In this document: piece after piece, positions 1 to 11,539 of the stretch
Layout of the letters: every line of letters starts with the position of its first letter
Numbering within the stretch: position 1 is the stretch's first letter
IMG/VR virus record: IMGVR_UViG_3300032291_004024
Coordinates: 1-22,558 of that record
Length of the DNA: 22,558 nucleotides
Source: a virus
Reading direction: 5' to 3' (one strand)
Notes under the pieces: generated by a model
Databases searched by the model: none
The model's input: only the letters and a program-made list of their open reading frames with translations
Told to the model about the DNA's origin: nothing
Translations under genes and position numbers: made by a program

Positions 1-291
1 ACAGGTTTTGCTGATAAGAACAGATATGACTATGGTGTGTTGTATAGTTTTAATGAAAAGATTTATGGTACTGTTCATAGAACAGAAAATGATGACCTAG
101 GCTTCACGGGCAACTATTGGGGACTGGTCTACAACCTGCACACAGAGGATGATAAACACAAAAGACCAGATAAAAGAGCTGGACTAGAGTTTGGTTTGTA
201 TTACCACGATAAAGAACAAACTTCAGTGTTTACGGGTGTATATAAAGATTATAACCCACAGTTGTTGGCCACCATTCGTTACAAGTTCTAA
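1..291 (+). CDS. Outer-membrane beta-barrel-like protein, C-terminal part (partial)
   Basis: The reading frame is open from the first base, so the gene starts before the window and only the last 96 residues are seen. The visible part alternates polar and hydrophobic or aromatic residues in short strands (for example GVLYSF, YWGLVYNL, LEFGLYY), separated by charged turns rich in D, K and E. It ends in ATIRYKF: a terminal Phe with Tyr two residues before it, as in the beta-signal of outer membrane proteins recognised by the BAM complex. There is no catalytic motif. I infer a barrel inserted in the host outer membrane. A beta-rich virion protein that happens to end in F cannot be excluded without the upstream part. 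If it is a barrel, the window holds two such proteins, this one and the porin at 9665-10708. Confidence 0.5.
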   Translation, partial: TGFADKNRYDYGVLYSFNEKIYGTVHRTENDDLGFTGNYWGLVYNLHTEDDKHKRPDKRAGLEFGLYYHDKEQTSVFTGVYKDYNPQLLATIRYKF

Positions 292-857: not shown

Positions 858-1226
858 TTACCAGCCCAGTATCAGCTGTCGTATTTCAGGATCCAGGCTC
901 TGCGGGCTCCATTGGGGGATCATGGTGATGCGCACATGGCATTTCTTGATGCCCTCCACGCTTTGCACAGCATTCTGTATGTCCACGGGTATGATGTCAG
1001 CTGCGGGGCAGAATGCGGAGGTCAAGGTGTGCAGCACATGGCATTCAGATTGATCTGTCACTTTGATGTCATATATCAGACCAAGATCGTAAATATTGAT
1101 GGGCAATTCGGGATCAAACACAGTCCTCAATCGTTCCACAATTTTTTGAATGTACAACAATCGAGTAGCTTCATGATCCACAACATCAGCCAACGTTTGG
1201 CTGACATCTTTGGTAATATCATTCAT
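858..1226 (-). CDS. MIP18/DUF59 family iron-sulfur assembly protein (SufT/PaaD-like)
   Basis: The 122-residue protein matches the MIP18 (DUF59) family. Residues 37-53 read VFDPELPINIYDLGLIY, the family's signature near the N-terminus. AFCPAADIIP (71-80) carries the conserved Cys-Pro, and PQWSPQ (105-110) followed by an Ile/Leu-rich end matches the usual C-terminus. Family members (SufT, PaaD, eukaryotic CIA2) help mature or insert Fe-S clusters and act in the cytoplasm. The start was set at the Met of MNDITKDV, because the open frame further upstream runs antisense through another gene and has non-protein-like composition; MLYSS, five residues earlier, is the alternative. There is no Shine-Dalgarno, but a promoter-like pair sits immediately upstream. 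Neighbours include an iron permease, and the window encodes four probable 4Fe-4S enzymes, so a role in supplying clusters to them is a reasonable inference. Confidence 0.85.
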   Translation of the reverse strand: MNDITKDVSQTLADVVDHEATRLLYIQKIVERLRTVFDPELPINIYDLGLIYDIKVTDQSECHVLHTLTSAFCPAADIIPVDIQNAVQSVEGIKKCHVRITMIPQWSPQSLDPEIRQLILGW

Positions 1227-1231
1227 GCTAG

Positions 1232-1260
1232 AGTATAACATGACTTTGACAGAGTCACAA
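1232..1260 (-). promoter_or_regulatory. Sigma-70-like promoter for the DUF59 gene
   Basis: On the minus strand TTGTGA (1260-1255) and TATACT (1237-1232) are separated by 17 bases. The -10 box ends 5 bases before the ATG at 1226, so the transcript would be leaderless or nearly so, in line with the missing ribosome site. It overlaps the divergent promoter at 1246-1273. Confidence 0.45.
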
Positions 1261-1273
1261 CCTGTGTTACAAT
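1246..1273 (+). promoter_or_regulatory. Strong sigma-70-like promoter for the His-rich gene
   Basis: A perfect -35 box TTGACA (1246-1251) and the -10 box TACAAT (1268-1273) are 16 bases apart, 13 bases upstream of the ATG at 1287. The AAGAGAGAG stretch in between can act as a ribosome site. It points to early, host-polymerase transcription. Confidence 0.6.
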
Positions 1274-1286
1274 TAAAGAGAGAGAA

Positions 1287-1499
1287 ATGTTTAATAAAAG
1301 AAAAAAATTCAAACACAAAAAAAAGTTCAACGGCAATCACAACCACAACCATGGCAAGGACACATTTGACAGCAATGTGCATCATCGCAGCAACGGCAGC
1401 TCGGGCTATGGCCTGAAGCGAGGGGTGGAGCAGGATCCCGCGGAGTTGCATGGCAGCTCGCTGCAGGGCATGCTGGACAAGTGGAACAGCAAAGATTAA
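1287..1499 (+). CDS. Small basic, histidine-rich protein (70 aa)
   Basis: The first 13 residues are nearly all Lys, Arg, Phe and His (MFNKRKKFKHKKKF). They are followed by alternating Asn-His (NGNHNHNHG) and later HH, eight His in all, mostly within the first 33 residues. The rest is polar and ends GMLDKWNSKD. The His/Asn clusters could bind metal and the basic start could bind nucleic acid; both are inferences from composition. DTFDSN and the basic N-terminus faintly recall the alphaproteobacterial RNA-binding DUF4167 family, but I would not assign it. The gene has a strong promoter of its own and lies between the Fe-S assembly gene and the lipoprotein and iron permease genes. Its stop codon shares the bases TTAA with the stop of the opposite gene at 1496. 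Confidence 0.6.
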   Translation: MFNKRKKFKHKKKFNGNHNHNHGKDTFDSNVHHRSNGSSGYGLKRGVEQDPAELHGSSLQGMLDKWNSKD

Positions 1500-1633
1500 A
1501 ACTTAGGTAAAGTAATTTTTTCTAGGACCTGGCCCACTCGGTCCATGGGACTGGTTTTTTCTTGTTTGTTTGTTTCAGCGGTGGCACAGCCAATCACGAA
1601 GAACAGACACAATATTGTCAGTGTTTTTTTCAT
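1496..1633 (-). CDS. Small lipoprotein (45 aa)
   Basis: The start was set at the Met of MKKTLTILCLFFVIGC, because this gives a standard lipoprotein signal: two Lys, a hydrophobic stretch and the lipobox VIGC, with Cys17 as the lipidation site. The mature peptide of only 29 residues begins CATAETNKQ and ends VLEKITLPKF. It should be anchored in the inner or outer membrane after processing by Lgt and LspA. The upstream open frame adds no plausible residues. It is divergent from the iron permease gene, with which it shares a promoter region. A role such as an Rz1-like spanin partner, an envelope plug or an iron-system accessory is possible; nothing in the sequence decides. Confidence 0.6.
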   Translation of the reverse strand: MKKTLTILCLFFVIGCATAETNKQEKTSPMDRVGQVLEKITLPKF

Positions 1634-1648
1634 ATGGTATTTAATAAT

Positions 1649-1676
1649 ATTATAACACAAAAAACAATTGACCCAA
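1649..1676 (-). promoter_or_regulatory. Sigma-70-like promoter for the lipoprotein gene
   Basis: On the minus strand TTGGGT (1676-1671) and a perfect TATAAT (1654-1649) are 16 bases apart, 15 bases from the ATG at 1633. The 10-base palindrome ATAATATTAT (1644-1653) overlaps the -10 box and could be an operator. It is AT-only, so it may be chance. Confidence 0.5.
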
Positions 1677-1696
1677 CCGGCAAAACAACATAAAAT
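1668..1696 (+). promoter_or_regulatory. Sigma-70-like promoter for the iron permease gene
   Basis: TTGACC (1668-1673) and TAAAAT (1691-1696) are separated by 17 bases, with the ATG at 1724. The -35 box overlaps the -35 box of the divergent lipoprotein promoter, so the two should compete or be co-regulated. Confidence 0.5.
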
Positions 1697-1723
1697 AAGT
1701 ATGATAAAAAACAATAAGGCACA

Positions 1724-2323
1724 ATGACACCACTGTTAAGTTCCATGTTTGTGATATTCCGAGAAGGCCTGGAAACATGGTTGATCATAGTTCTAGCCCT
1801 GGCCTCTACTAATGGTAATTTACAACAACAAAAAAGCATATGGATCAGCGCTGTAGCCGCTTTTGCAGCCACAATTTTATTGGGCAGTGCAACTGCTGCT
1901 TGGCTGGGCAACCATGCAAATTTAGAGCGCTTTGAAGCATTAATCGCCATTATAACGGGTGTTATATTGGCCTGGGTGGCCTGGTTCTGCCATGGTGCTG
2001 CGCAGCATGTTAAAGATCTTCCTAAACACAGCTCATGGGCACTAGGTGTGGCCACATTTGCCATAATCTTTAGAGAAGGTGTGGAAGTGGTTCTTTTCCT
2101 CACAGGCATCTATGCTGACCATCCCAATGTGGGTTTGATTGGTTTGGGCATTTTGGTGGGTTTGGTGGTTTTGGTAATAGCTGTTAAGGTTGCGAACTAC
2201 CAGATCAAGAAACTGCCAGTGCGACACATATTTTTCTACAGCAGGTGGTTGTTCTCAGCACTGGCTGTGTATTTCCTATATTCTGGAATCAAAGAACTGG
2301 TAGAGCATGGCCTGGGCTTCTAA
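1724..2323 (+). CDS. FTR1/EfeU-family iron permease, short form
   Basis: The 199-residue integral membrane protein has the two hallmark motifs of the FTR1 (oxidase-dependent iron transporter) family: REGLE in the first span (residues 13-17) and REGVE in the fourth (about 116-120). Their Glu residues line the iron path. About six hydrophobic spans can be counted, near 5-25, 38-60, 69-90, 105-127, 133-155 and 168-188. EfeU and its relatives usually have seven spans and roughly 270 residues, so this version lacks the C-terminal span but keeps both motifs. The predicted role is iron import across the host inner membrane. Partner proteins EfeO and EfeB are absent from the window. The start is the ATG with TAAGG 4 bases upstream. 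The gene has its own promoter and is followed by the tRNA promoter. It would count as an auxiliary metabolic gene in a phage. Confidence 0.88.
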   Translation: MTPLLSSMFVIFREGLETWLIIVLALASTNGNLQQQKSIWISAVAAFAATILLGSATAAWLGNHANLERFEALIAIITGVILAWVAWFCHGAAQHVKDLPKHSSWALGVATFAIIFREGVEVVLFLTGIYADHPNVGLIGLGILVGLVVLVIAVKVANYQIKKLPVRHIFFYSRWLFSALAVYFLYSGIKELVEHGLGF

Positions 2324-2365: not shown

Positions 2366-2441
2366 GCCCCTATAGCTCAGTGAGTAGAGCAACACCATGG
2401 TAAGGTGGAGGTCGTCAGTGCAATTCCGGCTAGGGGCACCA
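2366..2441 (+). tRNA. tRNA-Thr (anticodon GGT), degenerate
   Basis: A 76-base cloverleaf with CCA encoded. The acceptor stem GCCCCTA/TAGGGGC has seven of seven pairs and the D stem GCTC/GAGC is complete. The anticodon loop ATGGTAA gives GGT at 34-36 with U33 in place, reading ACC and ACU. Several positions are abnormal: 27-43 is A-G, the T stem has an A52-C62 mismatch, position 18 is A instead of the invariant G, and position 55 is G instead of the invariant U (pseudouridine). Because 18 and 55 normally touch each other, the D-loop/T-loop contact is altered on both sides. It may be decaying, specialised or affected by sequencing error. Confidence 0.75.
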
Positions 2442-2447
2442 CAACAC

Positions 2448-2523
2448 GGGGGCGTAGCTCACTTGGTAGAGCGCTTGGCTGGCAGTCAAGAGGTAGTCAG
2501 TTCGATCCTGATCGCCTCCACCA
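2448..2523 (+). tRNA. tRNA-Ala (anticodon GGC)
   Basis: A canonical 76-base cloverleaf with CCA encoded: acceptor GGGGGCG/CGCCTCC, D stem GCTC/GAGC, anticodon stem CTTGG/TCAAG with loop CTGGCAG, and T arm GTCAG-TTCGATC-CTGAT. The anticodon is GGC, which reads GCC. The third acceptor pair is G3-U70, the main identity element of alanine tRNA, which confirms the assignment independently of the anticodon. It lies 6 bases after tRNA-Thr and 6 bases before the next gene, so the two tRNAs are processed from one transcript. Confidence 0.92.
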
Positions 2524-2767: not shown

Positions 2768-3469
2768 ATGAAGTATGGTTTATATGCCGACGATGACGTG
2801 CCTAGGTTTGATCCAGTGCCAGGATATAAAACAAACCCGCATGGATATCGCTGTCCTGAATTCCATCCATTGCCAAACGGTGGCAAGAACATAGTTGTAC
2901 TTGGTTGCTCACATACCTTTGGAATAGGATTGGAAGATGGAGAAATCTGGATAAATCAAGTGGCTAAATCATCAAACAAAATATTTAGATGGTGGAACCT
3001 AGCAAGACCCGGTGGAAGTGCCGATCAAATGTTAAGAATTTTATATGGGACCGAAAAAACACTTTTTCCTAAAATTATAGTGGCATGTTGGCCGTCTATA
3101 AGTCGCAGAGAAAGATTATCTGAACATCCACAAAGCCTTACCAGTGATAATGATTTATTGAAATTAGAAGACCATCATACCGACACGAACAATTTTCTAA
3201 AAAATTTATTTTTTTTAGAAAAATTTGCTGAAAAGATTGACGCAAAAACCTTCCATTGTTTTGCTGAAGAAGTTCACTTATTAAAAAAAGACATCAACGT
3301 ATTGAAAAAATACACAATAAAAAATTGTTGGCCAGAATGGAATGTATTGGAGGGCACTGAGAAGATTACAAATTTTAGTCTAGCTAGAGATGGTGTACAT
3401 TATGGAGTCGAACACCACACAACTTTTGCAAAAATATTTCTAAAACAATTTAATGCAAGGATTCGTTAA
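2768..3469 (+). CDS. SGNH/GDSL-fold hydrolase-like protein
   Basis: Residues 42-54 read IVVLGCSHTFGIG, a strand followed by block I of the SGNH hydrolase fold with Ser48 as candidate nucleophile. RPGGSAD (about 80-86) fits block II. ARDGVHYG near the C-terminus carries the Asp and His of block V. Members are esterases, lipases or acyltransferases acting on sugar or lipid acetyl groups. The NPHGYRCPEF segment (23-32) before block I resembles NSLGYRSDIEF in the protein at 10895-11539, so the two look paralogous. There is no signal peptide. The gene is convergent with the radical SAM operon and overlaps its last gene by 20 bases. A role in glycan or envelope modification is inference. Confidence 0.7.
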   Translation: MKYGLYADDDVPRFDPVPGYKTNPHGYRCPEFHPLPNGGKNIVVLGCSHTFGIGLEDGEIWINQVAKSSNKIFRWWNLARPGGSADQMLRILYGTEKTLFPKIIVACWPSISRRERLSEHPQSLTSDNDLLKLEDHHTDTNNFLKNLFFLEKFAEKIDAKTFHCFAEEVHLLKKDINVLKKYTIKNCWPEWNVLEGTEKITNFSLARDGVHYGVEHHTTFAKIFLKQFNARIR

Positions 3470-4481
3470 AATATTTACAATAATCTATATTTCTTAATAG
3501 GTCCTGCCGGATCATGAATTGTTTCAATGCTATATCATTATTTTCCTTAAAAGAGCAGCAGTTATCTGCTATCGCGTTTAAAAGTTTGCTATCTAATTTA
3601 CACAGTTTGTTCTTGGCCTGTATAGTAAATTTATTTTCAAATCTTATGTCTAGTGCATTAGGTCTTGTGCAAAAGCCATAAGCATGCTCTATATTTTTTT
3701 CTTTTGTGTAAGAGATTATGTTTCCGAGATCTCCCACATTAAGACAACTGACCGTAGTCCAAAAATCTAATTTTAAGTTTGGATATTGTGCTCTCATGGC
3801 CACGTACACATCAACGTTACGATCAAATTTTTCCCACAATATGGGCCACCTCACATAGTCATGTATCTTTTCAACTCCATCAAAACTCATGGTTACAATT
3901 ATTTTTAATCCATTATCTAATAATTCTTTTACCTCTTTGATAACACTGGAGACATTTGTATTAATTCTAACAATTTTTACTGAATCTGGAAGATTCTTAA
4001 GAAGTTTTTTGTAGTTTGGACTTGCGGATGGTTCTCCTCCGTTGATGTCTAATTCACATATCCTGTGCTGGGGCAGGGCAAGAAATTTTTGATAGTTATT
4101 AAATTTTGGATATTTTTTAGAAACGAGACTACCTATCTTGGTACTCAGGCCACTGTGACAAGTTTGGCAAGCACTATTGCATATATTATCTAGTACTCCA
4201 CCTATTATCAAGTAATCTTTTTTAATAGCACGCAATATTCTGTCTCTTTCTATCATATCCAAACGTATGCTGGTATTGCTGGTTTCCTCGGTCATCTTGC
4301 AACGAACACATTCCGCTGGCCATGACTCATTCTGCATCGTCTCTTTTATTTCTTGCAGCCACGAACTTTTTTGCATCTCTTCAAAGGAGTCAAATTCTTT
4401 TGCGTTGGTCATATGTCCGCATTTGCTTATTTTTCCTTCGTGATTTATTCTTGCGAAATGGTCAAGCCTGGGGCAATGCAT
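3450..4481 (-). CDS. Radical SAM protein with N-terminal SPASM/twitch-like Cys region (operon gene 8)
   Basis: The radical SAM signature CX3CX2C is at Cys101, 105 and 108 (NICNSACQTC), and the SAM-binding GGEP motif at 148-151. Before it, Cys3, Cys21, Cys58 and Cys61 form an extra Cys set like a SPASM or twitch auxiliary cluster, but placed N-terminal to the core. Such enzymes cleave S-adenosylmethionine with a 4Fe-4S cluster to make a 5'-deoxyadenosyl radical; the substrate is unknown. At 343 residues it has the normal size for this type, which is common in marine T4-like phages. It is the last gene of the operon and starts inside the end of the sulfotransferase gene (20-base overlap). It is related in layout to the gene at 5033-6175. 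Confidence 0.85.
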   Translation of the reverse strand: MHCPRLDHFARINHEGKISKCGHMTNAKEFDSFEEMQKSSWLQEIKETMQNESWPAECVRCKMTEETSNTSIRLDMIERDRILRAIKKDYLIIGGVLDNICNSACQTCHSGLSTKIGSLVSKKYPKFNNYQKFLALPQHRICELDINGGEPSASPNYKKLLKNLPDSVKIVRINTNVSSVIKEVKELLDNGLKIIVTMSFDGVEKIHDYVRWPILWEKFDRNVDVYVAMRAQYPNLKLDFWTTVSCLNVGDLGNIISYTKEKNIEHAYGFCTRPNALDIRFENKFTIQAKNKLCKLDSKLLNAIADNCCSFKENNDIALKQFMIRQDLLRNIDYCKYFNESLH

Positions 4482-5040
4482 GATCTATCTCCGCTATCAG
4501 TGAAAGTATATTAATTTTTTTGCTTACGTAAAATCTATCAGGTGTTTTATGCATGTGCCGGTCAAACAATAAATCATCGTATAGTATACCTGGATATTTT
4601 ATCTTAGATATCTTTTCTCGCTGTGCATTTGTAATATCAGGAATAGAGGGGCGAGTTCTTTCGGGAATCCATTCTTTTAGTTCACTAACACCGCGGAGAT
4701 CAACTATTCCACTGAAGTATTTTGCAAGACATTTGATAAAATAGAATTGTGGCATAAAATGCTCATTGTCTAGTGAGTGATGTTCTATACAATATAATAG
4801 GGTGTCATAATCCAGATCGCTTTTTTTCCTTCTTTCAAATTCTATAAAGCTGTGCACGCCCGAAATAAATCTATCAATGGGCTCTCTCAAAAATATTATG
4901 ATTGTATCCAAGTTCTTTAGCTGTTCGTTAATCAGCCATTTTATTTTTTTCTCTTTGGCATGAGTTTCAATGCTAGATCTACCATTTTTGAAAATAGGTA
5001 AAACAAATTTTCCGGGCAATAATTCAACAACTTTAATCAT
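4462..5040 (-). CDS. Sulfotransferase-family protein (operon gene 7)
   Basis: Residues 14-23 (LPIFKNGRSS) resemble the 5'-phosphosulfate-binding loop that holds PAPS, and IIIFLREPIDRFISG a little later matches the 3'-phosphate-binding block (RxPxxRxxSG). Together they mark the sulfotransferase family, which moves sulfate from PAPS to sugars, peptides or lipids. The start was set at the ATG at 5040, which gives 192 residues, has GGAAG just upstream and overlaps the previous stop (TATGATTAA); the frame could begin four codons earlier at a TTG. Related genes are frequent in marine myoviruses, and their substrates are unknown. Lying between two radical SAM genes, it may act on the same product. 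Confidence 0.75.
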   Translation of the reverse strand: MIKVVELLPGKFVLPIFKNGRSSIETHAKEKKIKWLINEQLKNLDTIIIFLREPIDRFISGVHSFIEFERRKKSDLDYDTLLYCIEHHSLDNEHFMPQFYFIKCLAKYFSGIVDLRGVSELKEWIPERTRPSIPDITNAQREKISKIKYPGILYDDLLFDRHMHKTPDRFYVSKKINILSLIAEIDHALPQA

Positions 5041-6175
5041 AAACTTCCGCAAATATTTTTTTGCTGTTTAATTTTCTCCTCTTATCTAATAATTCAAGCC
5101 CGCTGTACGACTCCGGTAGTTGCTTTTTGAAATCTGTATTTAAATAATCTAATAAATTTTTATAACTATCCTCAAGAAAATGTCCAGGTTTTTCTTGTAT
5201 TCTATCGTTTAATATCTTCTTGCATGAATCAATCTTGTGCTGAGGCAAGTTCAATATGTTAAGGTATTTTGGTTCGTAGATTGGCCCAATTATAAATGAA
5301 TTGTCATGGAAGCCCATGTCTCTTAGGAAATCAATACAGTCAAAAATCTTTACATGATTTAGTATGAAGTACAACATATTAAAAGATATTTTATGATGAG
5401 ATATCTTTTTTATTTCTGATAGGTTGTTTTGAAATTTTTTCCAAGATCCCCCATATCTGATGTACTCATATGCATCTCCCATGGACTCAACACTCACAGT
5501 CCAGTGCACATTGCCAAACTGTGCTATCAGTTTGCCCACCTTGCTCTCAATGGCAGATAGATTGGTATTGACTCTTAAAGTTACATCGGGATTATCTTTC
5601 ATCAATAGTTCCAAGAATTCTTGATTCTCGTTCATTAGTAAGGGCTCTCCCCCCGCAAGATATACGTTTTTAAAATTTTTAATATTTGAAAAGATATAAT
5701 CTTTTAAATGTTTTTTCCGATCATCGGTCATGCTTTTGCCTCCACCCACTTCCTTAGCCCACAATGTGCTGTTGTGCGGGCCACAATATACACAGGCCTG
5801 ATTGCATTGGTTGGACCAACGCAGATCTGCAGTGCGAAGGTCAAAGTTATTGATAGAATCATACAGTTTAGTATCAACCGACCTTAGCTCTTTCAAATAA
5901 TATATACGCTGGGATATTATGTCAAAGCTATTTTTATTTTCTTCAAGTTTGTAGCACCCAACGCAACTTGCTGGTTTATTGCCAGACAACATCTGTGTTT
6001 TTATTTCTTTATTTTCTTTGCTGTTGACTATCTGTAATATATCCTGTTTCTGTAAATCTCCTATGCTGTCTTTGGCCAAAACACAGTTTTTGACTTCTCC
6101 GGACTGCTGCACAATAAATCCGGTCCATGGCAGTGGACAAAAACTCTTATTTTTTATAATATCTCTGGCATCCAT
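5033..6175 (-). CDS. Radical SAM protein with N-terminal twitch-like Cys region (operon gene 6)
   Basis: The CX3CX2C motif lies at Cys124, 128 and 131 (NQCNQACVYC), followed by GGEP at 175-178. Residues 12-18 (FCPLPWT) with Cys13, Cys31, Cys71 and Cys74 (CVGC) form an N-terminal auxiliary cluster region of the CP-x-PW type seen in twitch-domain radical SAM proteins. At 380 residues it is full length for the type. The start is the ATG two bases after the SDR stop. The enzyme should be cytoplasmic and depend on one or two 4Fe-4S clusters; the substrate is unknown. The same Cys spacing recurs in the gene at 3450-4481, so the pair may have arisen by duplication or act on two sites of one substrate. 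Confidence 0.87.
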   Translation of the reverse strand: MDARDIIKNKSFCPLPWTGFIVQQSGEVKNCVLAKDSIGDLQKQDILQIVNSKENKEIKTQMLSGNKPASCVGCYKLEENKNSFDIISQRIYYLKELRSVDTKLYDSINNFDLRTADLRWSNQCNQACVYCGPHNSTLWAKEVGGGKSMTDDRKKHLKDYIFSNIKNFKNVYLAGGEPLLMNENQEFLELLMKDNPDVTLRVNTNLSAIESKVGKLIAQFGNVHWTVSVESMGDAYEYIRYGGSWKKFQNNLSEIKKISHHKISFNMLYFILNHVKIFDCIDFLRDMGFHDNSFIIGPIYEPKYLNILNLPQHKIDSCKKILNDRIQEKPGHFLEDSYKNLLDYLNTDFKKQLPESYSGLELLDKRRKLNSKKIFAEVYD

Positions 6176-6177
6176 TT

Positions 6178-6744
6178 TTATAACTTCAAATCATTATTTG
6201 TAGGAACGAGAGTGATTTCATTCACATAGATTTTTTTATTATTAATGAAAGTATCCAGTACCAAACTCACCCACTGATCCACATCGCACTTGTCGTCGTT
6301 AGACGAGTTTTTTTGTGTGGACACCCCACCGGGTCTTATTATAGATATAAAAGGCCACCTGTCTTTAAAACGCAATTGGCGAGCGGCGTCTTCCAACGCA
6401 ATTTTTTGATTTCTATACGCAGACATAGTGATGTCTTCTTGGCCGTCTGGTGTGCTGTTTATCGGTTGCTCGGCCATCTGCGTGCTGATGTTCCAGATGT
6501 ACTTGTCTTTTTGTCCACGCCATCTTTGCCACACGGCATAAAGCAATTCCGTCTGAGCGTATTGAGTCTGAGCATTATTAATCAACATATCACAGGGCGA
6601 TATAAGATTTGCCACATGTTCGATCCTTCTTATATTATCTCCCGTGCGACGGCTTACACCCACAATCTCATGCCCACGTGCTTCTAATGCTTTGCAAAAA
6701 GCCTGTCCTATGCCCGCTGTGTGTCCTGTGATTGCAATTTTCAT
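6178..6744 (-). CDS. Short-chain dehydrogenase/reductase (operon gene 5)
   Basis: The glycine-rich nucleotide-binding motif TGHTAGIG (6-13), the NNA motif (56-58), a Ser in IST (86-88) and the catalytic pair YRNQK (Tyr110, Lys114) are all present, so this is an active-looking NAD(P)-dependent classical SDR. The later IIRPGGVST fits the PG motif. At 188 residues it is shorter than the usual 250, with a compressed middle part. The substrate is unknown; SDRs in such cassettes often act on nucleotide sugars or ketones. The ATG at 6744 lacks a clear ribosome site. It sits between a P-loop-like gene (11-base gap) and a radical SAM gene (2-base gap). Confidence 0.85.
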   Translation of the reverse strand: MKIAITGHTAGIGQAFCKALEARGHEIVGVSRRTGDNIRRIEHVANLISPCDMLINNAQTQYAQTELLYAVWQRWRGQKDKYIWNISTQMAEQPINSTPDGQEDITMSAYRNQKIALEDAARQLRFKDRWPFISIIRPGGVSTQKNSSNDDKCDVDQWVSLVLDTFINNKKIYVNEITLVPTNNDLKL

Positions 6745-6755
6745 ATATGAATTAT

Positions 6756-7484
6756 TTAAATCATTTTAAAATGGGTGAAAAATTTATTGATATCTATAGT
6801 TTTGGCAGAGTCGAAACTTACAACATAATTTTTATTATCAATTTGTATATCATTACGTCTAAAATTTTCTTTATTATGTAAAGAAGAAAATAATTTTTTC
6901 ATATTTTTTGTTGAAGGCTCTAATCCGTTTAAAACGCATTGTATTTGACCAAAGGATAATTTGTTCCTATATTTAGATAAAATTTCTTTTGTAATTTTTT
7001 TAATTTCTTTTTTAGTTTTATCATCATTAAACATTTCTATTTTACAATAAATTTCTCCAACATACTCGGTTATGTCTGTTGTTTTATATAACCAATAATT
7101 ATTATAAAGGTGTTGAAGATATTGTTGTTGTTGTTCTTTTGTATTTGGGGGTTTAATTGTTACAAAATAAGAATTAGTAAAAAATTTTCTTAAGATTTTA
7201 GCATCGACATGAGAAGGAACAACAGTAAATTTATTAACCTTATCTATTTTATTTTTAAAATCTTTTATAATTTTTATACATAATTTTTCTTTATCTTGGA
7301 AATTATATTGGAAATTATTATTAAATCCTAAAAATACTTTATTAAATATGTCGTTTTTAATAACGGTTCTGCCTTTTTCTGTCTTAACCAAAAGTCTATC
7401 ACACAATGGATGTTGAGAAATTCTGTGAGATAAATTTTCTCCCCCAAACCCGTGTTGATAACAGACAAAAATAAGTTTATCCAT
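6756..7484 (-). CDS. P-loop/sulfotransferase-like protein, uncertain (operon gene 4)
   Basis: The N-terminus is a hydrophobic strand followed by a Gly-containing loop (LIFVCYQHGFGGENLSH), the form of a phosphate-binding loop. The pattern IF-x2-Y-x2-G-x2-G-x2-L also occurs in the protein at 13799-14503, which suggests a common family of sulfotransferase-like or kinase-like P-loop proteins. The rest is Lys/Asn/Ile-rich with no further motif I can name. The gene is among the most AT-rich of the window, with many A/T runs, unlike the replication genes, and this points to separate acquisition. It follows the SGNH gene after one base. Function is not assigned beyond the loop. Confidence 0.55.
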   Translation of the reverse strand: MDKLIFVCYQHGFGGENLSHRISQHPLCDRLLVKTEKGRTVIKNDIFNKVFLGFNNNFQYNFQDKEKLCIKIIKDFKNKIDKVNKFTVVPSHVDAKILRKFFTNSYFVTIKPPNTKEQQQQYLQHLYNNYWLYKTTDITEYVGEIYCKIEMFNDDKTKKEIKKITKEILSKYRNKLSFGQIQCVLNGLEPSTKNMKKLFSSLHNKENFRRNDIQIDNKNYVVSFDSAKTIDINKFFTHFKMI

Positions 7485-7485
7485 T

Positions 7486-8286
7486 TTAATTTTTTTTAAA
7501 CTTTGCGTAGTTTTCTTGGGTAAATTTTTTACACAGTAATTCTAAAGAAAGATATTTTTTATTTTTTTTCAACCCCTTTTCTAATAAGATTGGACATATG
7601 ATGTTATGCAACAAAGACCACTGAACATCAGCACACGGCACAATTGATTCTCTTTCAGCGCTTACATTATAGATTGCCGATGGATGACTTTTCATAATTG
7701 TTTGTAGAGATTTATCGGTTGCTTGTAATGACCAGTCAATCTCTTTGTAAATAGATTTTGTACTATCATTGTTTGACAAGGACTCATGATCTATATCTGA
7801 ATGTAGTAAGAATCTGTAATAGATATTTTTTTTTTGACACAGGTTCTGTAGTGTAAGCATGTTTTGTAAGTCATCCATGTCTGTGCCAGTTTTGCTTTTA
7901 ATTTTTTCATTATAATATTTTTTCCATTCCACAGTGTTGTCGTTGCTGCTGCACCAATAGCCCGCACCGGTGGTGGTTTTGCTGTTTTCAGGATCCACTA
8001 TAAAATTCCTTATACTTTTGCTATTTAGAACAGTATCAATAAATTCCTGATTTTCAACATACAGATCAAATTTGCCAAAATTCCATTGCACCAACAAAAC
8101 ATCGGGAGTCACTTTATCAAGTTGTCTTATGACCGATCTAGTGATGTAAAGGTTGCCCGCGGCCGGAGCCGAGACATCAATATGTCTGCAATTGAAATAC
8201 AGAGGAAGCAGCTTCGTCCACGTTGGCCAATATCGCCATCGTGAATAGCTAGGTCCGCTACCTGCTGTAATTATTAATTTTTTCAT
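7486..8286 (-). CDS. SGNH-fold-like protein (operon gene 3)
   Basis: The start MKKLIITAGSGPSYS gives a strand and a Gly-Ser turn like block I of SGNH proteins. VSAPAAGNLYI (38-48) fits block II and VLLVQWNFGKFDLY fits block III with its Asn. DVQWSLLHNI near residue 220 can supply the final Asp and His. The match is weaker than in the gene at 2768, so catalytic competence is uncertain. At 266 residues it has no signal peptide. It overlaps the upstream radical SAM gene by ATGA, which means translational coupling. Within the cassette it may add or remove an acyl group from the product; that is inference. Confidence 0.55.
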   Translation of the reverse strand: MKKLIITAGSGPSYSRWRYWPTWTKLLPLYFNCRHIDVSAPAAGNLYITRSVIRQLDKVTPDVLLVQWNFGKFDLYVENQEFIDTVLNSKSIRNFIVDPENSKTTTGAGYWCSSNDNTVEWKKYYNEKIKSKTGTDMDDLQNMLTLQNLCQKKNIYYRFLLHSDIDHESLSNNDSTKSIYKEIDWSLQATDKSLQTIMKSHPSAIYNVSAERESIVPCADVQWSLLHNIICPILLEKGLKKNKKYLSLELLCKKFTQENYAKFKKN

Positions 8287-9353
8287 TCAACCAAATATAT
8301 ATTTTTTTGTAACGTTGGAGTTTCTATCAGCATGTTTTTATTTTGCAATTTCAAATGATTGCGTTTGCTTTTAACTTTTTCAAACTCATCTAGATATTTT
8401 TGGTGTTGTGGGTGTTCTGTAAGTGTGACATTTATTTCTTGAAAATTCTTATAGGTATTCCAATCCTCAATTTTATTTAAACATACATTATCCACGTCAT
8501 ATTTTTCGGCCAATTCAATTATTTTAAGCATCTCGTGATAATTGTCCTTCTGCACCACAAAATGTATAGACAATTTAAAATTATGCTCTTTTTTCTTTTC
8601 CTTTAAAAAAGCAAGATTTTCGATAATTTTATCATATGATCCTCCCAGACGTAACTTTTCATACGTTTCTTTGGTCGCTCCATCTATACTCACCCCAATC
8701 TTTTTTGTTCGATCCCATATCTTCTTTGTTCTATTATATAATTGTTTTAGCAAAAGGCCATTGGTCTGAAAACTAAAATCTATATTTTGAATATCAACAG
8801 ATTCTCTCATAAAATATCTATAGATCAAACTTGCGAATGGATCTCCATCCGATCCTATGTGCACCAATACTCTGTGATTGAGACCTTTTAAAAAAGTTAT
8901 TATTTTATCAATAATTTTTATTCTGGCTTTGAAATGTGTACCAGAAACAACAAATATTTGCTTTTTACGACAACTTGGGCAACTAAGATTACAAGAGTCA
9001 TCCACAGCAAGTTTTATGTTTTTTATTTGTGTCGCAGGCAGATCTTTGCTCCATACTTCTCCCGTGCTCGCATACAATAACCAAGAACACTGCCTATCAT
9101 TACAGTATCGATAAGACCCATCCATTATGGATGTACGCAATGTATTTGCGGATTCGCTTGCTAATACTTCTTCTATATTTTGTAACTGCAAATTCCCAAC
9201 ACTTTGCGGTAACCATGAAGTACATTCACACAGATAGCAAGAACCAAATTTATCAATGAGCAGCGTATCAAATGGTTTGGGGCAACGTGTTTGTATTGAC
9301 TTATTTTTTTTCGTATCAATATTATACCAGTCAAATAACTTTTGATTGATCAC
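8283..9353 (-). CDS. Radical SAM protein with variant GGEP motif (operon gene 2)
   Basis: CX3CX2C lies at Cys121, 125 and 128 (DDSCNLSCPSC). The SAM-binding motif that is normally GGEP appears as GSDGDP (167-172). SFQTNGLLL and VSIDGATKETYEKLR match later strands of SPASM-type radical SAM proteins, the latter being the usual SIDG motif. An N-terminal Cys-rich region (Cys24, 39, 42, 44, 84, 89) precedes the core. At 356 residues the length is normal. The start is a GTG that overlaps the upstream stop as GTGA, so it is translated by coupling with the 66-residue gene. The substrate is unknown. It is clearly diverged from the other two radical SAM genes and resembles typical bacterial SPASM enzymes more closely. 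Confidence 0.85.
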   Translation of the reverse strand: MINQKLFDWYNIDTKKNKSIQTRCPKPFDTLLIDKFGSCYLCECTSWLPQSVGNLQLQNIEEVLASESANTLRTSIMDGSYRYCNDRQCSWLLYASTGEVWSKDLPATQIKNIKLAVDDSCNLSCPSCRKKQIFVVSGTHFKARIKIIDKIITFLKGLNHRVLVHIGSDGDPFASLIYRYFMRESVDIQNIDFSFQTNGLLLKQLYNRTKKIWDRTKKIGVSIDGATKETYEKLRLGGSYDKIIENLAFLKEKKKEHNFKLSIHFVVQKDNYHEMLKIIELAEKYDVDNVCLNKIEDWNTYKNFQEINVTLTEHPQHQKYLDEFEKVKSKRNHLKLQNKNMLIETPTLQKNIYLVE

Positions 9354-9550: not shown

Positions 9551-9603
9551 GGGTCATCTCCTGCTGTGTGATCATCGATACTGTAATTATCCGTGCTAAA
9601 GTT

Positions 9604-9632
9604 ATTGTACTACAACATTGAGCAGAGGTCAA
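9604..9632 (-). promoter_or_regulatory. Sigma-70-like promoter of the radical SAM operon
   Basis: On the minus strand TTGACC (9632-9627) and TACAAT (9609-9604) are 17 bases apart, about 53 bases upstream of the ATG at 9550. The -35 box lies inside a hairpin (9625-9643) that follows the porin gene. It gives the whole cassette its own host-polymerase promoter. Confidence 0.55.
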
Positions 9633-9643
9633 ATAATGACCCC
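9625..9643 (-). terminator. Hairpin after the porin gene, possible terminator
   Basis: On the minus strand GGGGTCA pairs with TGACCTC (six Watson-Crick pairs and one G-U) around the loop TTATT, about 20 bases after the porin stop. No T run follows, so termination would be weak or factor-dependent. The stem also contains the -35 box of the next promoter. Confidence 0.35.
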
Positions 9644-9664
9644 CGCTATCAATATTGTTTTCAA

Positions 9665-10708
9665 CTAAAATGCGTAGTTGATTCCCACCGTTGCTAGGCT
9701 GGGATCTTTTCCTGCTGTAGGAGCAGTCATACCATTAAGATACATGGTACTGTTCGCGTCGTTGGTGACTCTGCTGTAGGCTCCATAGATACTTGCACCC
9801 GGTGCAAATGTCTTGGACAGACCCAAGGTGTAACCAGTGCCTTCATTGGCAGTGGTCTGTGCGCCATCCTTGGCCATGGCGTACACTGCATGAGCCACAA
9901 GTCCGTTCTTGTCCAAAGGTATTCTCGCCGAGAACACGTTGGCAGTGGACTTGACGTCACTGGTCGCGGAGTTGTCACCGTACACATAGGCAGCGCCCAA
10001 AGAGAACGCACCGAAGTCATAGGATCCACCAATGCTCTTGGCATCAGTTTCTCCCACTGAGGTAGTGGCCTGTTTGGTTGCATAGCCCACGCCCAACTTG
10101 GCTGCACCAGTGGCATAGGTCAGAGACCCAGACGTGGTGTCGGCCTTGGCGTCCGTGGTGGCAGTGCTGGAGTTACCCGCATAGCCGGCCTGTACAGAGA
10201 ATCCACCGATGCTTGGTGAAATGTACTTGATCACGTTGCTGGCATCTGTGCCGATCTCTATGGCTGCGCCGTTGACAGGCATGTTTGAGAAGTTTCCGAA
10301 CTGCCATGACAGTGTGTCAATTTCTCCTGCCATTGATAGGTCGGTGGTACCCAAACGTACTTCTCCCGCGGATCCGCTCACTCCCACCCAGGCTTCTCTC
10401 GCGAATACCTGTCCGGTGTTGGTGGTTGAACCCAATGTTGCTGTGTTGGCCTTTAGACCACCTTCCAACTGGAAGTTGAACTGTATGCCACCCAGGTCAG
10501 GGGAGTTGCCCTTGAATCCCAAACGGCTGGTGCTTAGTCCACCATCGCCTGCTCGGATCAAAGAGTCCACGCCGTTGTCATAACTCTGCACGGCAGCGTC
10601 AACGTTGCCGTAGAAGTTGAGAACTGGAGCGGTTGTCTTGGTCTGTGCTCCGGCCGCGCTGGCTATCATGGTAGATGCTAGCAGGGCTAGAATTGTTGTG
10701 TTTTTCAT
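9665..10708 (-). CDS. Gram-negative porin (trimeric beta-barrel type)
   Basis: The start was set at the Met of MKNTTILALLAS, which has AAAGGAG 10 bases upstream and yields a clean signal peptide ending AAGA-Q near residue 21. The 347-residue protein has the usual porin features: FYGNVDAAVQSY as the first strand, STSRLGFKG (as in SRFGFRG of general porins), LEGGLKA, REAWVGVSG-x-GEVRLG, then repeated strands and loops, and a final GINYAF with the C-terminal Phe needed for assembly. Porins let small solutes through the outer membrane. The style recalls betaproteobacterial general porins. The DNA is visibly GC-richer than the neighbouring AT-rich operon, which supports transfer from a host. It is complete with no frameshift, so it is likely functional in the phage. 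Confidence 0.9.
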   Translation of the reverse strand: MKNTTILALLASTMIASAAGAQTKTTAPVLNFYGNVDAAVQSYDNGVDSLIRAGDGGLSTSRLGFKGNSPDLGGIQFNFQLEGGLKANTATLGSTTNTGQVFAREAWVGVSGSAGEVRLGTTDLSMAGEIDTLSWQFGNFSNMPVNGAAIEIGTDASNVIKYISPSIGGFSVQAGYAGNSSTATTDAKADTTSGSLTYATGAAKLGVGYATKQATTSVGETDAKSIGGSYDFGAFSLGAAYVYGDNSATSDVKSTANVFSARIPLDKNGLVAHAVYAMAKDGAQTTANEGTGYTLGLSKTFAPGASIYGAYSRVTNDANSTMYLNGMTAPTAGKDPSLATVGINYAF

Positions 10709-10728
10709 TTTTGTTTTCTCCTTTAATT

Positions 10729-10743
10729 CTTGCAAAAAGCAAG
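10729..10743 (-). promoter_or_regulatory. 5'-leader hairpin of the porin mRNA
   Basis: A perfect 5-base stem CTTGC/GCAAG with a 5-base T loop lies about 20 bases before the porin ATG, just upstream of the AAAGGAG ribosome site. A leader hairpin in this position protects ompA-type mRNAs from degradation in enterobacteria; a similar role here is inference. Confidence 0.4.
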
Positions 10744-10785
10744 AAACGTGATTGTACTATAGGTTGTGTTTATATGCGACCTATT

Positions 10786-10813
10786 ATTGTACTGCCTTGG
10801 TTATTTGACGCAA
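10786..10813 (-). promoter_or_regulatory. Possible sigma-70 promoter for the porin gene
   Basis: On the minus strand TTGCGT (10813-10808) and TACAAT (10791-10786) are 16 bases apart, about 78 bases before the ATG. The 186-base gap 10709-10894 holds nothing else but the leader hairpin and a second copy of the octamer ATTGTACT (10751-10758). A late-like TATAAACA on the minus strand (10774-10767) is an alternative. Confidence 0.35.
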
Positions 10814-10894
10814 CTGGTAAATTGTTGTGCGTGATTTTTTATTATGATAAAAAAACTTATCGTTGAAAACATTTGATATTTTATTTTATGTATA

Positions 10895-11539
10895 TTAGCA
10901 GGCCAATTTGAGATGATCCAGTATCTTCAAGCCAATGAGACGGTGGCTTTTTTTACCAAAAGTGGCAGCATCATGTGGCAGGGACCGATCCACTTGATAT
11001 TTCTGGTCCACCAGGCAATTGGGCAAGGTGATGCCATATCGCACATTGTCCCAATAAAGAAACTTGTGTCGCAGACCCAACATCATTGCCTCCAGCTGGG
11101 CATGGAACTTCCTGAATTCCTCCTCCAGCAGATGCACCGGCTTGTCCAACACTATGCGCCCATCTTGCCGATAGCAATCCAGGTTGTTGATCTGATAAAA
11201 TATCATCCTTGGACGAGACACTGTCAGCAGTGAGCGCACAAATTCTAAATATTCAAGATTGGTGTGCGCCACGCATCCCCATGAAAAATTGTACACGGGG
11301 GCTTTTATCTGTTGTGATACCATGCCAGGGAACGTGTGGATCAGGTCCAGCCCTATGCCAAATGTTATGCTATTGCCCAGGAACCAAATCGCATCATCGC
11401 GCGGCACAAATTCTATGTCCGACCTGTAGCCCAGAGAATTGAAACGATACTGCGAATCCGTGCAGTTGTCATAGCCAAAATTCTTCAACGTGGAAGATCT
11501 GTGCTCCAGCATGTTTTTTGGTGCTTCAGGGAAATTCAT
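10895..11539 (-). CDS. SGNH/GDSL-fold hydrolase-like protein
   Basis: IWFLGNSITFGIG (51-63) gives the strand and block I with Ser57 as candidate nucleophile. VYNFSWGCVAHTNLEYL fits block II, IFYQINNLDCY carries an Asn as in block III, and LPHDAATFGKKSH near the end could provide Asp and His, though the DxxH form is not clear. FNSLGYRSDIEF before block I matches the protein at 2768. At 214 residues it is soluble with no signal peptide. It is flanked by the porin gene and a late-type element at its own start. An esterase or acyltransferase role on envelope sugars is inference. A start at Met10 is possible. Confidence 0.65.
   Translation of the reverse strand: MNFPEAPKNMLEHRSSTLKNFGYDNCTDSQYRFNSLGYRSDIEFVPRDDAIWFLGNSITFGIGLDLIHTFPGMVSQQIKAPVYNFSWGCVAHTNLEYLEFVRSLLTVSRPRMIFYQINNLDCYRQDGRIVLDKPVHLLEEEFRKFHAQLEAMMLGLRHKFLYWDNVRYGITLPNCLVDQKYQVDRSLPHDAATFGKKSHRLIGLKILDHLKLAC

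Follow-up and report, generated by a model that had tools for sequence, protein, structure and literature searches.

Do neighboring iron-related genes of an uncultured phage work together to supply iron during infection? We addressed this question for IMG/VR record IMGVR_UViG_3300032291_004024, positions 1 to 22,558 (the window, i.e. the whole 22,558-base stretch), a fragment of the genome of an uncultured virus in which genes for a SufT-like DUF59 protein and an FTR1-family iron permease lie at 858-2323. Much microbial growth in aquatic habitats is iron-limited, yet to our knowledge the usual discussion treats phages as iron users or carriers, not importers. The first-pass annotation had proposed that DUF59, a 'His-rich' peptide, a lipoprotein and FTR1 form a module meeting an iron demand that the phage itself creates. 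Our reading, to which we give about an even chance, is that the region would be a phage iron-handling island, flanked by the phage ClpP gene on one side and a tRNA/SGNH/radical-SAM block on the other, with FTR1 as the lineage-wide core and an upstream haem set plus DUF59 as a subclade add-on. We observed the gene families, intact motifs, purifying selection, conserved promoters and gene order in relatives on which this reading draws. It suggests that the phage may top up host iron during infection, with genes that would be expressed in the infected cell and would benefit the phage.

The permease and the genes beside it

The locus holds the following genes and promoters.

858-1226, minus strand: DUF59 (FeS_assembly_P, PF01883) protein, SufT-like, 122 amino acids, stop codon at 858-860
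1232-1273, both strands: interleaved divergent promoters, TTGACA-16-TACAAT on the plus strand (1246-1273) and TTGTGA-17-TATACT on the minus strand (1260-1232)
1287-1499, plus strand: small basic peptide, 70 amino acids, recognized by conservation; no family match in profile searches
1496-1633, minus strand: small predicted lipoprotein, 45 amino acids, lipobox VIGC; no family match in profile searches
1668-1696, plus strand: sigma-70-like promoter upstream of FTR1, TTGACC-17-TAAAAT, from a promoter scan
1724-2323, plus strand: FTR1-family iron permease (PF03239), 199 amino acids, six predicted transmembrane helices, REGxE in helices 1 and 4

As first annotated, the product of 1724-2323 belongs to the FTR1 family, matching PF03239 with E=3.9e-13 (49.8 bits vs the gathering cut-off of 25.3). 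Both REGxE motifs (R13 E14 G15 E17 and R117 E118 G119 E121) lie inside predicted helices, 3-27 and 104-132 (helices 1 and 4), and are invariant across 22 phage sequences, down to ~40% identity. An AlphaFold2 model (mean pLDDT 74.5) places the helices at 3-27, 33-61, 64-94, 104-132, 136-161 and 166-196. We found FTR1 in 25 viral loci forming two lineages ~40% identical (near, 56-92% identity; far, 38-42%), and its carriers are a group of large uncultured aquatic phages. The ratio of nonsynonymous to synonymous substitution rates (dN/dS) of the gene is well under 1, indicating purifying selection. Judged by its sequence, the phage protein is a divergent, shortened FTR1-family member; iron would be its substrate and import, presumably, its direction.

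A pattern scan of 84,980 genomes gave no confirmed nearest cellular relative of FTR1, and a solved-structure search gave no relative. Foldseek and VIA returned only a helical-bundle resemblance to the major facilitator superfamily (MFS), including ferroportin; the best Z was 13.9, roughly the range in which caution is advised with helical bundles, and this was not used. Isolated-phage matches for FTR1 and DUF59 were set aside as possible host DNA; most came from unannotated records named 'Listeria/Staphylococcus phage' or from faecal records, at 26-43% identity. Among the open-licence papers searched, none described FTR1 as an auxiliary gene of phages; the nearest case is a single line that mentions 'iron permease FTR1' for a cyanobacterium, within a potential prophage region (PMC5177637).

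Could the FTR1-like protein be something other than an iron importer, acting on another metal, in superinfection exclusion or in membrane de-energisation? Its divergence speaks for such a role and also weighs against the iron-handling island. The product falls far below the cut-offs of TIGR00145 (E 3.1e-17, 63.1 bits; cut-off 303.8) and of the EfeU equivalog NF041756 (43.3 bits; cut-off 255), and its best plasmid-borne cellular relatives are 29-30% identical. It ends after six predicted helices, missing the C-terminal part and seventh helix of EfeU, which has seven membrane helices (PMC9174327). In addition, no EfeO/M75 partner gene (PF09375) was found in 22 FTR1-related records, all of them fragments of genomes; this search did not extend to EfeB or cupredoxin partners. 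However, both REGxE motifs, the family's known iron-path signature, are strictly kept, and the haem and DUF59 context is iron-related. We hold a non-importing protein to be highly improbable, and the phage FTR1 probably either depends on a host partner or is partner-free.

The annotated MIP18/SufT-like gene was confirmed: its product matches PF01883 (E=6.3e-16, 58.9 bits vs the gathering cut-off of 23.5) and NCBIfam SUF_assoc TIGR02945 (E 1.2e-29, 102.6 bits, under the equivalog cut-off of 143.4). The DPE (D37 P38 E39) and SAFCPAAD (C72) motifs are invariant among 10 phage DUF59 sequences, and profile matches give TM0487 and 5ird as solved relatives. These features suggest a putative role in iron-sulfur (Fe-S) maturation; in S. 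aureus, SufT matters most under high Fe-S demand (PMC4982691). A longer open reading frame (ORF) up to 1451 was rejected, as it is open by chance and would take in non-coding sequence, so the gene is 858-1226. DUF59 is common, with at least 398 confirmed viral loci, usually without FTR1. Another phage lineage (L027-L034) has DUF59 immediately before the UvsW helicase gene (57% identical to the window's), which makes a second fixed setting for phage DUF59.

All four genes have pairwise dN/dS of ~0.04-0.2 where dS is estimable. The predicted lipoprotein, likewise confirmed as an ORF with a lipobox, is conserved in L002, L004 and L018 (50-98%) under purifying selection. The 70-residue peptide is 79-94% identical across relatives, with dN/dS well under 1. 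Its conserved portion is the C-terminal part only (HHRS..GYG.K.GVEQDPAELHGSSLQGMLDKWNS), and in the G011, G012 and L004 homologues the NHNHNH tract that had earned it the label 'His-rich' gives way to K/N-rich sequence. Hence, since the His tract is not conserved, a metal-chelating role for the peptide was rejected.

The overlapping divergent promoters reported earlier were also found, and the region between DUF59 and the peptide that holds them is near-identical in 4/4 sequences compared. The FTR1 promoter retains TTGAC and a TAnAAT -10 box in 6/6 sequences compared, with one departure (TAGAAT in L002). The promoter-scan excess (9 vs 4.7 ± 2.7) is weak alone. Since the minus-strand -10 box ends 5 nt ahead of the DUF59 ATG, the DUF59 message would be leaderless.

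The haem set upstream and gene order in relatives

At the left edge of the window lies a gene end that the first-pass annotation missed.

37-291, plus strand: 3' end, truncated by the left edge of the window, of a gene for an outer-membrane beta-barrel-like protein (~355 amino acids when complete, as in L211, L036 and L201)

The last 84 amino acids of this product share 65-93% identity with the C-terminal region of signal-peptide proteins of 351-355 amino acids in relatives and end in F; the protein had no Pfam match. The window starts within the last third of this gene, and two genes of the relatives lie beyond the cut and were missed as well. In all three closest relatives (records G001, G011 and G012, the sources of L002, L035 and L036), bilin reductase and haem oxygenase genes precede the outer-membrane protein gene, between ClpP and DUF59-FTR1 and within ~5 kb of DUF59 and FTR1. 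They match PF01126 (haem oxygenase, E 4e-21 to 4e-24) and PF05996 (ferredoxin-dependent bilin reductase, E 5e-17 to 6e-19). In a profile screen of 50 viral records (21 with FTR1, all selected for FTR1; 14 selected for DUF59), both families were confined to these three. The haem oxygenase motifs EQHRRAE and LGDLYGGQ are intact, and the bilin reductase is conserved as well. These two genes, just outside the window, are the strongest members of the iron-themed island, and the window's own genome would carry them beyond its left edge. In two of the three relatives (L201 1925-3190; L036 3764-5026), a full-length MFS transporter gene lies between them on the opposite strand.

Because the relatives' records are all genome fragments, we restricted the comparison of gene content to fully sequenced ClpP-FTR1 intervals, which represent 11 distinct lineages with near-identical ones merged (L002, L004, L005, L006, L009, L035, L036, L038, L041, L042 and L045). 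The contents vary by lineage. DUF59 is present in 4/11, and the haem oxygenase, bilin reductase and outer-membrane protein in 3/11, always with DUF59; every distinct close relative with DUF59 has the haem oxygenase and bilin reductase in the same interval. Except for L045, an FTR1 lineage has either all four of these genes or none of them. DUF59 travels with the upstream haem set more than with FTR1. The corresponding hypergeometric p of 0.024 (3/3 vs 4/11) is valid only if the lineages are wrongly taken as independent.

DUF59 lies beside FTR1 in four close records (L002, L003, L035 and L036); in the distant L045/L046, 1.4 kb separate the two. In the screen, DUF59 was found in 4 of the 21 FTR1 records, and FTR1 in 0/14 of the DUF59-selected records. 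The four-gene module is partly supported, in its iron theme; with DUF59 in a minority of the intervals and no FTR1 in the DUF59-selected records, it is not a fixed module.

The main rival explanation is that there is no functional module. In a gene-swapping island, single auxiliary genes (FTR1, DUF59, haem oxygenase, MFS, TRAP binding protein, porins, 2-oxoglutarate (2OG)-oxygenase-like genes, methyltransferases) would come and go, with the iron ones neighbors by chance and each acting alone. The lineage-to-lineage differences between ClpP and FTR1, the mostly separate occurrence of DUF59 and FTR1, and the non-iron MFS, DctP and BKACE-like genes in the same island all fit this explanation. Each gene also has its own promoter and strand; hence, there is no operon. 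However, swapping of single genes has to contend with the all-or-none pattern of haem oxygenase, bilin reductase, outer-membrane protein and DUF59 outside L045, and with DUF59 lying near FTR1 in the distant L045/L046 too. We judge such a chance neighborhood quite possible without being probable.

The variable island of L202 (G003) has at 9603-11141 a split TRAP-type DctP solute-binding protein, made up of an N-terminal ORF (Pfam DctP) and two similar ORFs resembling the C-terminal half. In L209 (G008), an ORF at 16569-17420 is BKACE/DUF849-like by sequence reading only.

We also looked at haem oxygenase in other phages. A first HemO scan returned only the same records, and the motif RYLGDLxGGQ was then used; haem oxygenase was present in 79/80 of the loci so selected. 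No FTR1 or DUF59 was found around the 79 HemO-encoding loci (80 examined), and 20 such records, profile-tested, all lacked both. The bilin reductase of pelagiphage Mosig, which adjoins a haem oxygenase, is 60% identical to that of the window's relatives; Mosig had no FTR1 or DUF59 match. In this isolated SAR11 phage (L340 10357-14684), the two genes are clustered with ferrochelatase and four annotated 2OG-Fe(II) oxygenases. Hence, the combination of haem oxygenase and bilin reductase with FTR1 and DUF59 is so far specific to the window's subclade.

Several of these results, like the divergence of the permease, weigh against the iron-handling island. DUF59 is absent from 7/11 intervals. Of haem-oxygenase phages outside the subclade, the 20 records tested carry neither FTR1 nor DUF59. 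The three records in which haem oxygenase accompanies FTR1 are closely related and so amount to little more than one evolutionary event.

The upstream pair could instead make a bilin chromophore or signal, such as a phytochrome ligand, with DUF59 serving another metal-cofactor protein and FTR1 being an unrelated nutrient gene. The bilin reductase is conserved and would be unneeded for iron release alone, and the PcyA of a freshwater phage makes phycocyanobilin, which assembles into a working phytochrome (PMC11480375). However, the annotated intervals showed no gene for a phycobilisome or a phytochrome, the window's porin (below) points to a betaproteobacterial host, and FTR1 and DUF59 beside the pair are left unexplained. 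We consider a chromophore role improbable. For phage haem oxygenase and bilin reductase, iron supply has been suggested in print, with the authors only speculating on an advantage in alphaproteobacterial hosts (PMC11480375).

Downstream genes, iron users and the porin

Beyond FTR1, the window contains the following.

2366-2523, plus strand: tRNA-Thr(GGT) and tRNA-Ala(GGC), found with ARAGORN, the right-hand border of the island
2768-3469, plus strand: SGNH-like flanking gene, from a GCSHTFG motif reading only; no Pfam match
3450-4481, minus strand: radical SAM twitch-like protein 1, CNSACQTC (N_Twi_rSAM 3.3e-35, below cut-off)
5033-6175, minus strand: radical SAM/twitch protein 2, CNQACVYC (PF04055 2.1e-14; N_Twi_rSAM 1.1e-79, above cut-off)
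8283-9353, minus strand: radical SAM/SPASM protein 3 (rSAM3), CNLSCPSC (PF04055 1.2e-11)
9665-10735, minus strand: phage-encoded Omp32-like general porin (PF13609 7e-38; phmmer to Omp32, 1e54, 3.3e-15)
11676-12368, minus strand: endonuclease III with 4Fe-4S cysteine motif CX6CX2CX5C (CKSRNPACESCVIKAAC; TIGR01083 2.2e-49, below cut-off)

The first-pass annotation had tied the permease to the demand of three radical SAM enzymes and endonuclease III. The proteins themselves are there, with CX3CX2C in all three radical SAM proteins (PF04055 in two) and CX6CX2CX5C in endonuclease III. The tie was not upheld. Radical SAM genes are near-ubiquitous in these phages, FTR1 present or not: a twitch-type gene is in 20 of the 21 FTR1 records and a radical SAM gene in 13/14 DUF59-selected records without FTR1, and at least three relatives sequenced across this region (L148/G025, L174/G028 and L187/G033) retain rSAM3 and the SGNH gene but have no FTR1. 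Hence, radical SAM load does not predict or explain FTR1. A comparison of radical SAM in FTR1-positive (20/21) and FTR1-negative (8/15) records was rejected because 53/80 DnaB loci end <4 kb from dnaB, before the relevant region.

An SGNH-like homologue lies downstream of FTR1 in most FTR1 loci and adjoins rSAM3 also in loci without FTR1. Another iron enzyme, the small subunit of class I ribonucleotide reductase, is encoded in FTR1 records G019 and G020 (two far relatives). Across relatives, a block of radical SAM, sulfotransferase-like, short-chain dehydrogenase/reductase-like and SGNH-like genes (3450-9353 in the window) is kept and resembles a peptide or glycan modification set.

The Burkholderiales homologues of the porin are ~25-31% identical, a general Burkholderiales-type resemblance only, from plasmids and Omp32. 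A scan of 84,980 genomes with the porin found no host. The porin may offer a possible outer-membrane route. An Omp32-like porin is also near dnaB in L035 and L036, and in L008 and L037 a porin gene lies just upstream of FTR1 rather than near dnaB; hence, porins move within the region. The isolates nearest to the window's DnaB helicase are the jumbo phages PA5oct and Atu_ph07 (~50% each); the complete genome is therefore probably much longer than the window.

Proposed mechanism and known systems

For the iron-handling island, we propose that FTR1 would act as an inner-membrane permease of the FTR1/EfeU family raising iron entry into the infected cell, working without the usual periplasmic partner or borrowing that of the host. 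Haem oxygenase would free iron from host haem, and the ferredoxin-dependent bilin reductase would remove biliverdin. The DUF59/SufT-like protein may, like SufT of S. aureus, aid 4Fe-4S cluster loading at times of high demand, and the porin or outer-membrane protein may ease iron entry through the outer membrane. The likely users would be iron enzymes of phage and host in general, among them radical SAM proteins, endonuclease III and, in some relatives, class I ribonucleotide reductase; the radical SAM genes would have no special place among them.

In its fullest form, a lytic, jumbo-phage-related lineage would bring a complete iron economy to the host cell: outer-membrane entry (porin, outer-membrane protein), inner-membrane import by FTR1, breakdown of haem by the oxygenase and the bilin reductase, and SufT-like delivery into Fe-S clusters. 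We regard this extended form as doubtful. If true, iron supply would explain the retention of haem oxygenase and bilin reductase by phages whose bacterial hosts lack phycobilisomes. The pair, within ~5 kb of an iron permease and an Fe-S assembly factor, is a concrete, testable case for its role in such hosts.

Among known systems, the permease resembles the oxidase-dependent iron transporters EfeU/Ftr1 (PF03239, TIGR00145) in exceeding the Pfam FTR1 cut-off, in having REGxE in helices 1 and 4, and in being a helical membrane protein. It differs in its 199 amino acids and six predicted helices (vs ~276 and seven), in its identity of 29-30% to the cellular members found, in being encoded by a phage, and in that no EfeO/M75 was found. 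The DUF59 protein is like the SufT/DUF59 (MIP18) factors S. aureus SufT, M. tuberculosis Rv1466 and T. maritima TM0487 in its single DUF59 domain, its DPE and conserved Cys motif, and its profile match to TM0487/5ird. Unlike these, it scores below the TIGR02945 cut-off and is not beside suf genes; aquatic phages carry DUF59 widely and in a variety of contexts.

The haem oxygenase and bilin reductase neighbors in the window's relatives recall the hemO-pcyX/pcyA cassette of marine cyanophages, pelagiphage Mosig and freshwater phage CB_2 (PMC11480375). In the relatives, however, the pair sits with an outer-membrane protein, DUF59 and FTR1, whereas the other haem-oxygenase records tested have neither DUF59 nor FTR1. 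Finally, the 'Ferrojan horse' hypothesis, in which iron in phage tails serves entry, likewise ties phages to host iron. It concerns virion-bound iron at entry, whereas the genes described here would act, if at all, inside the infected cell.

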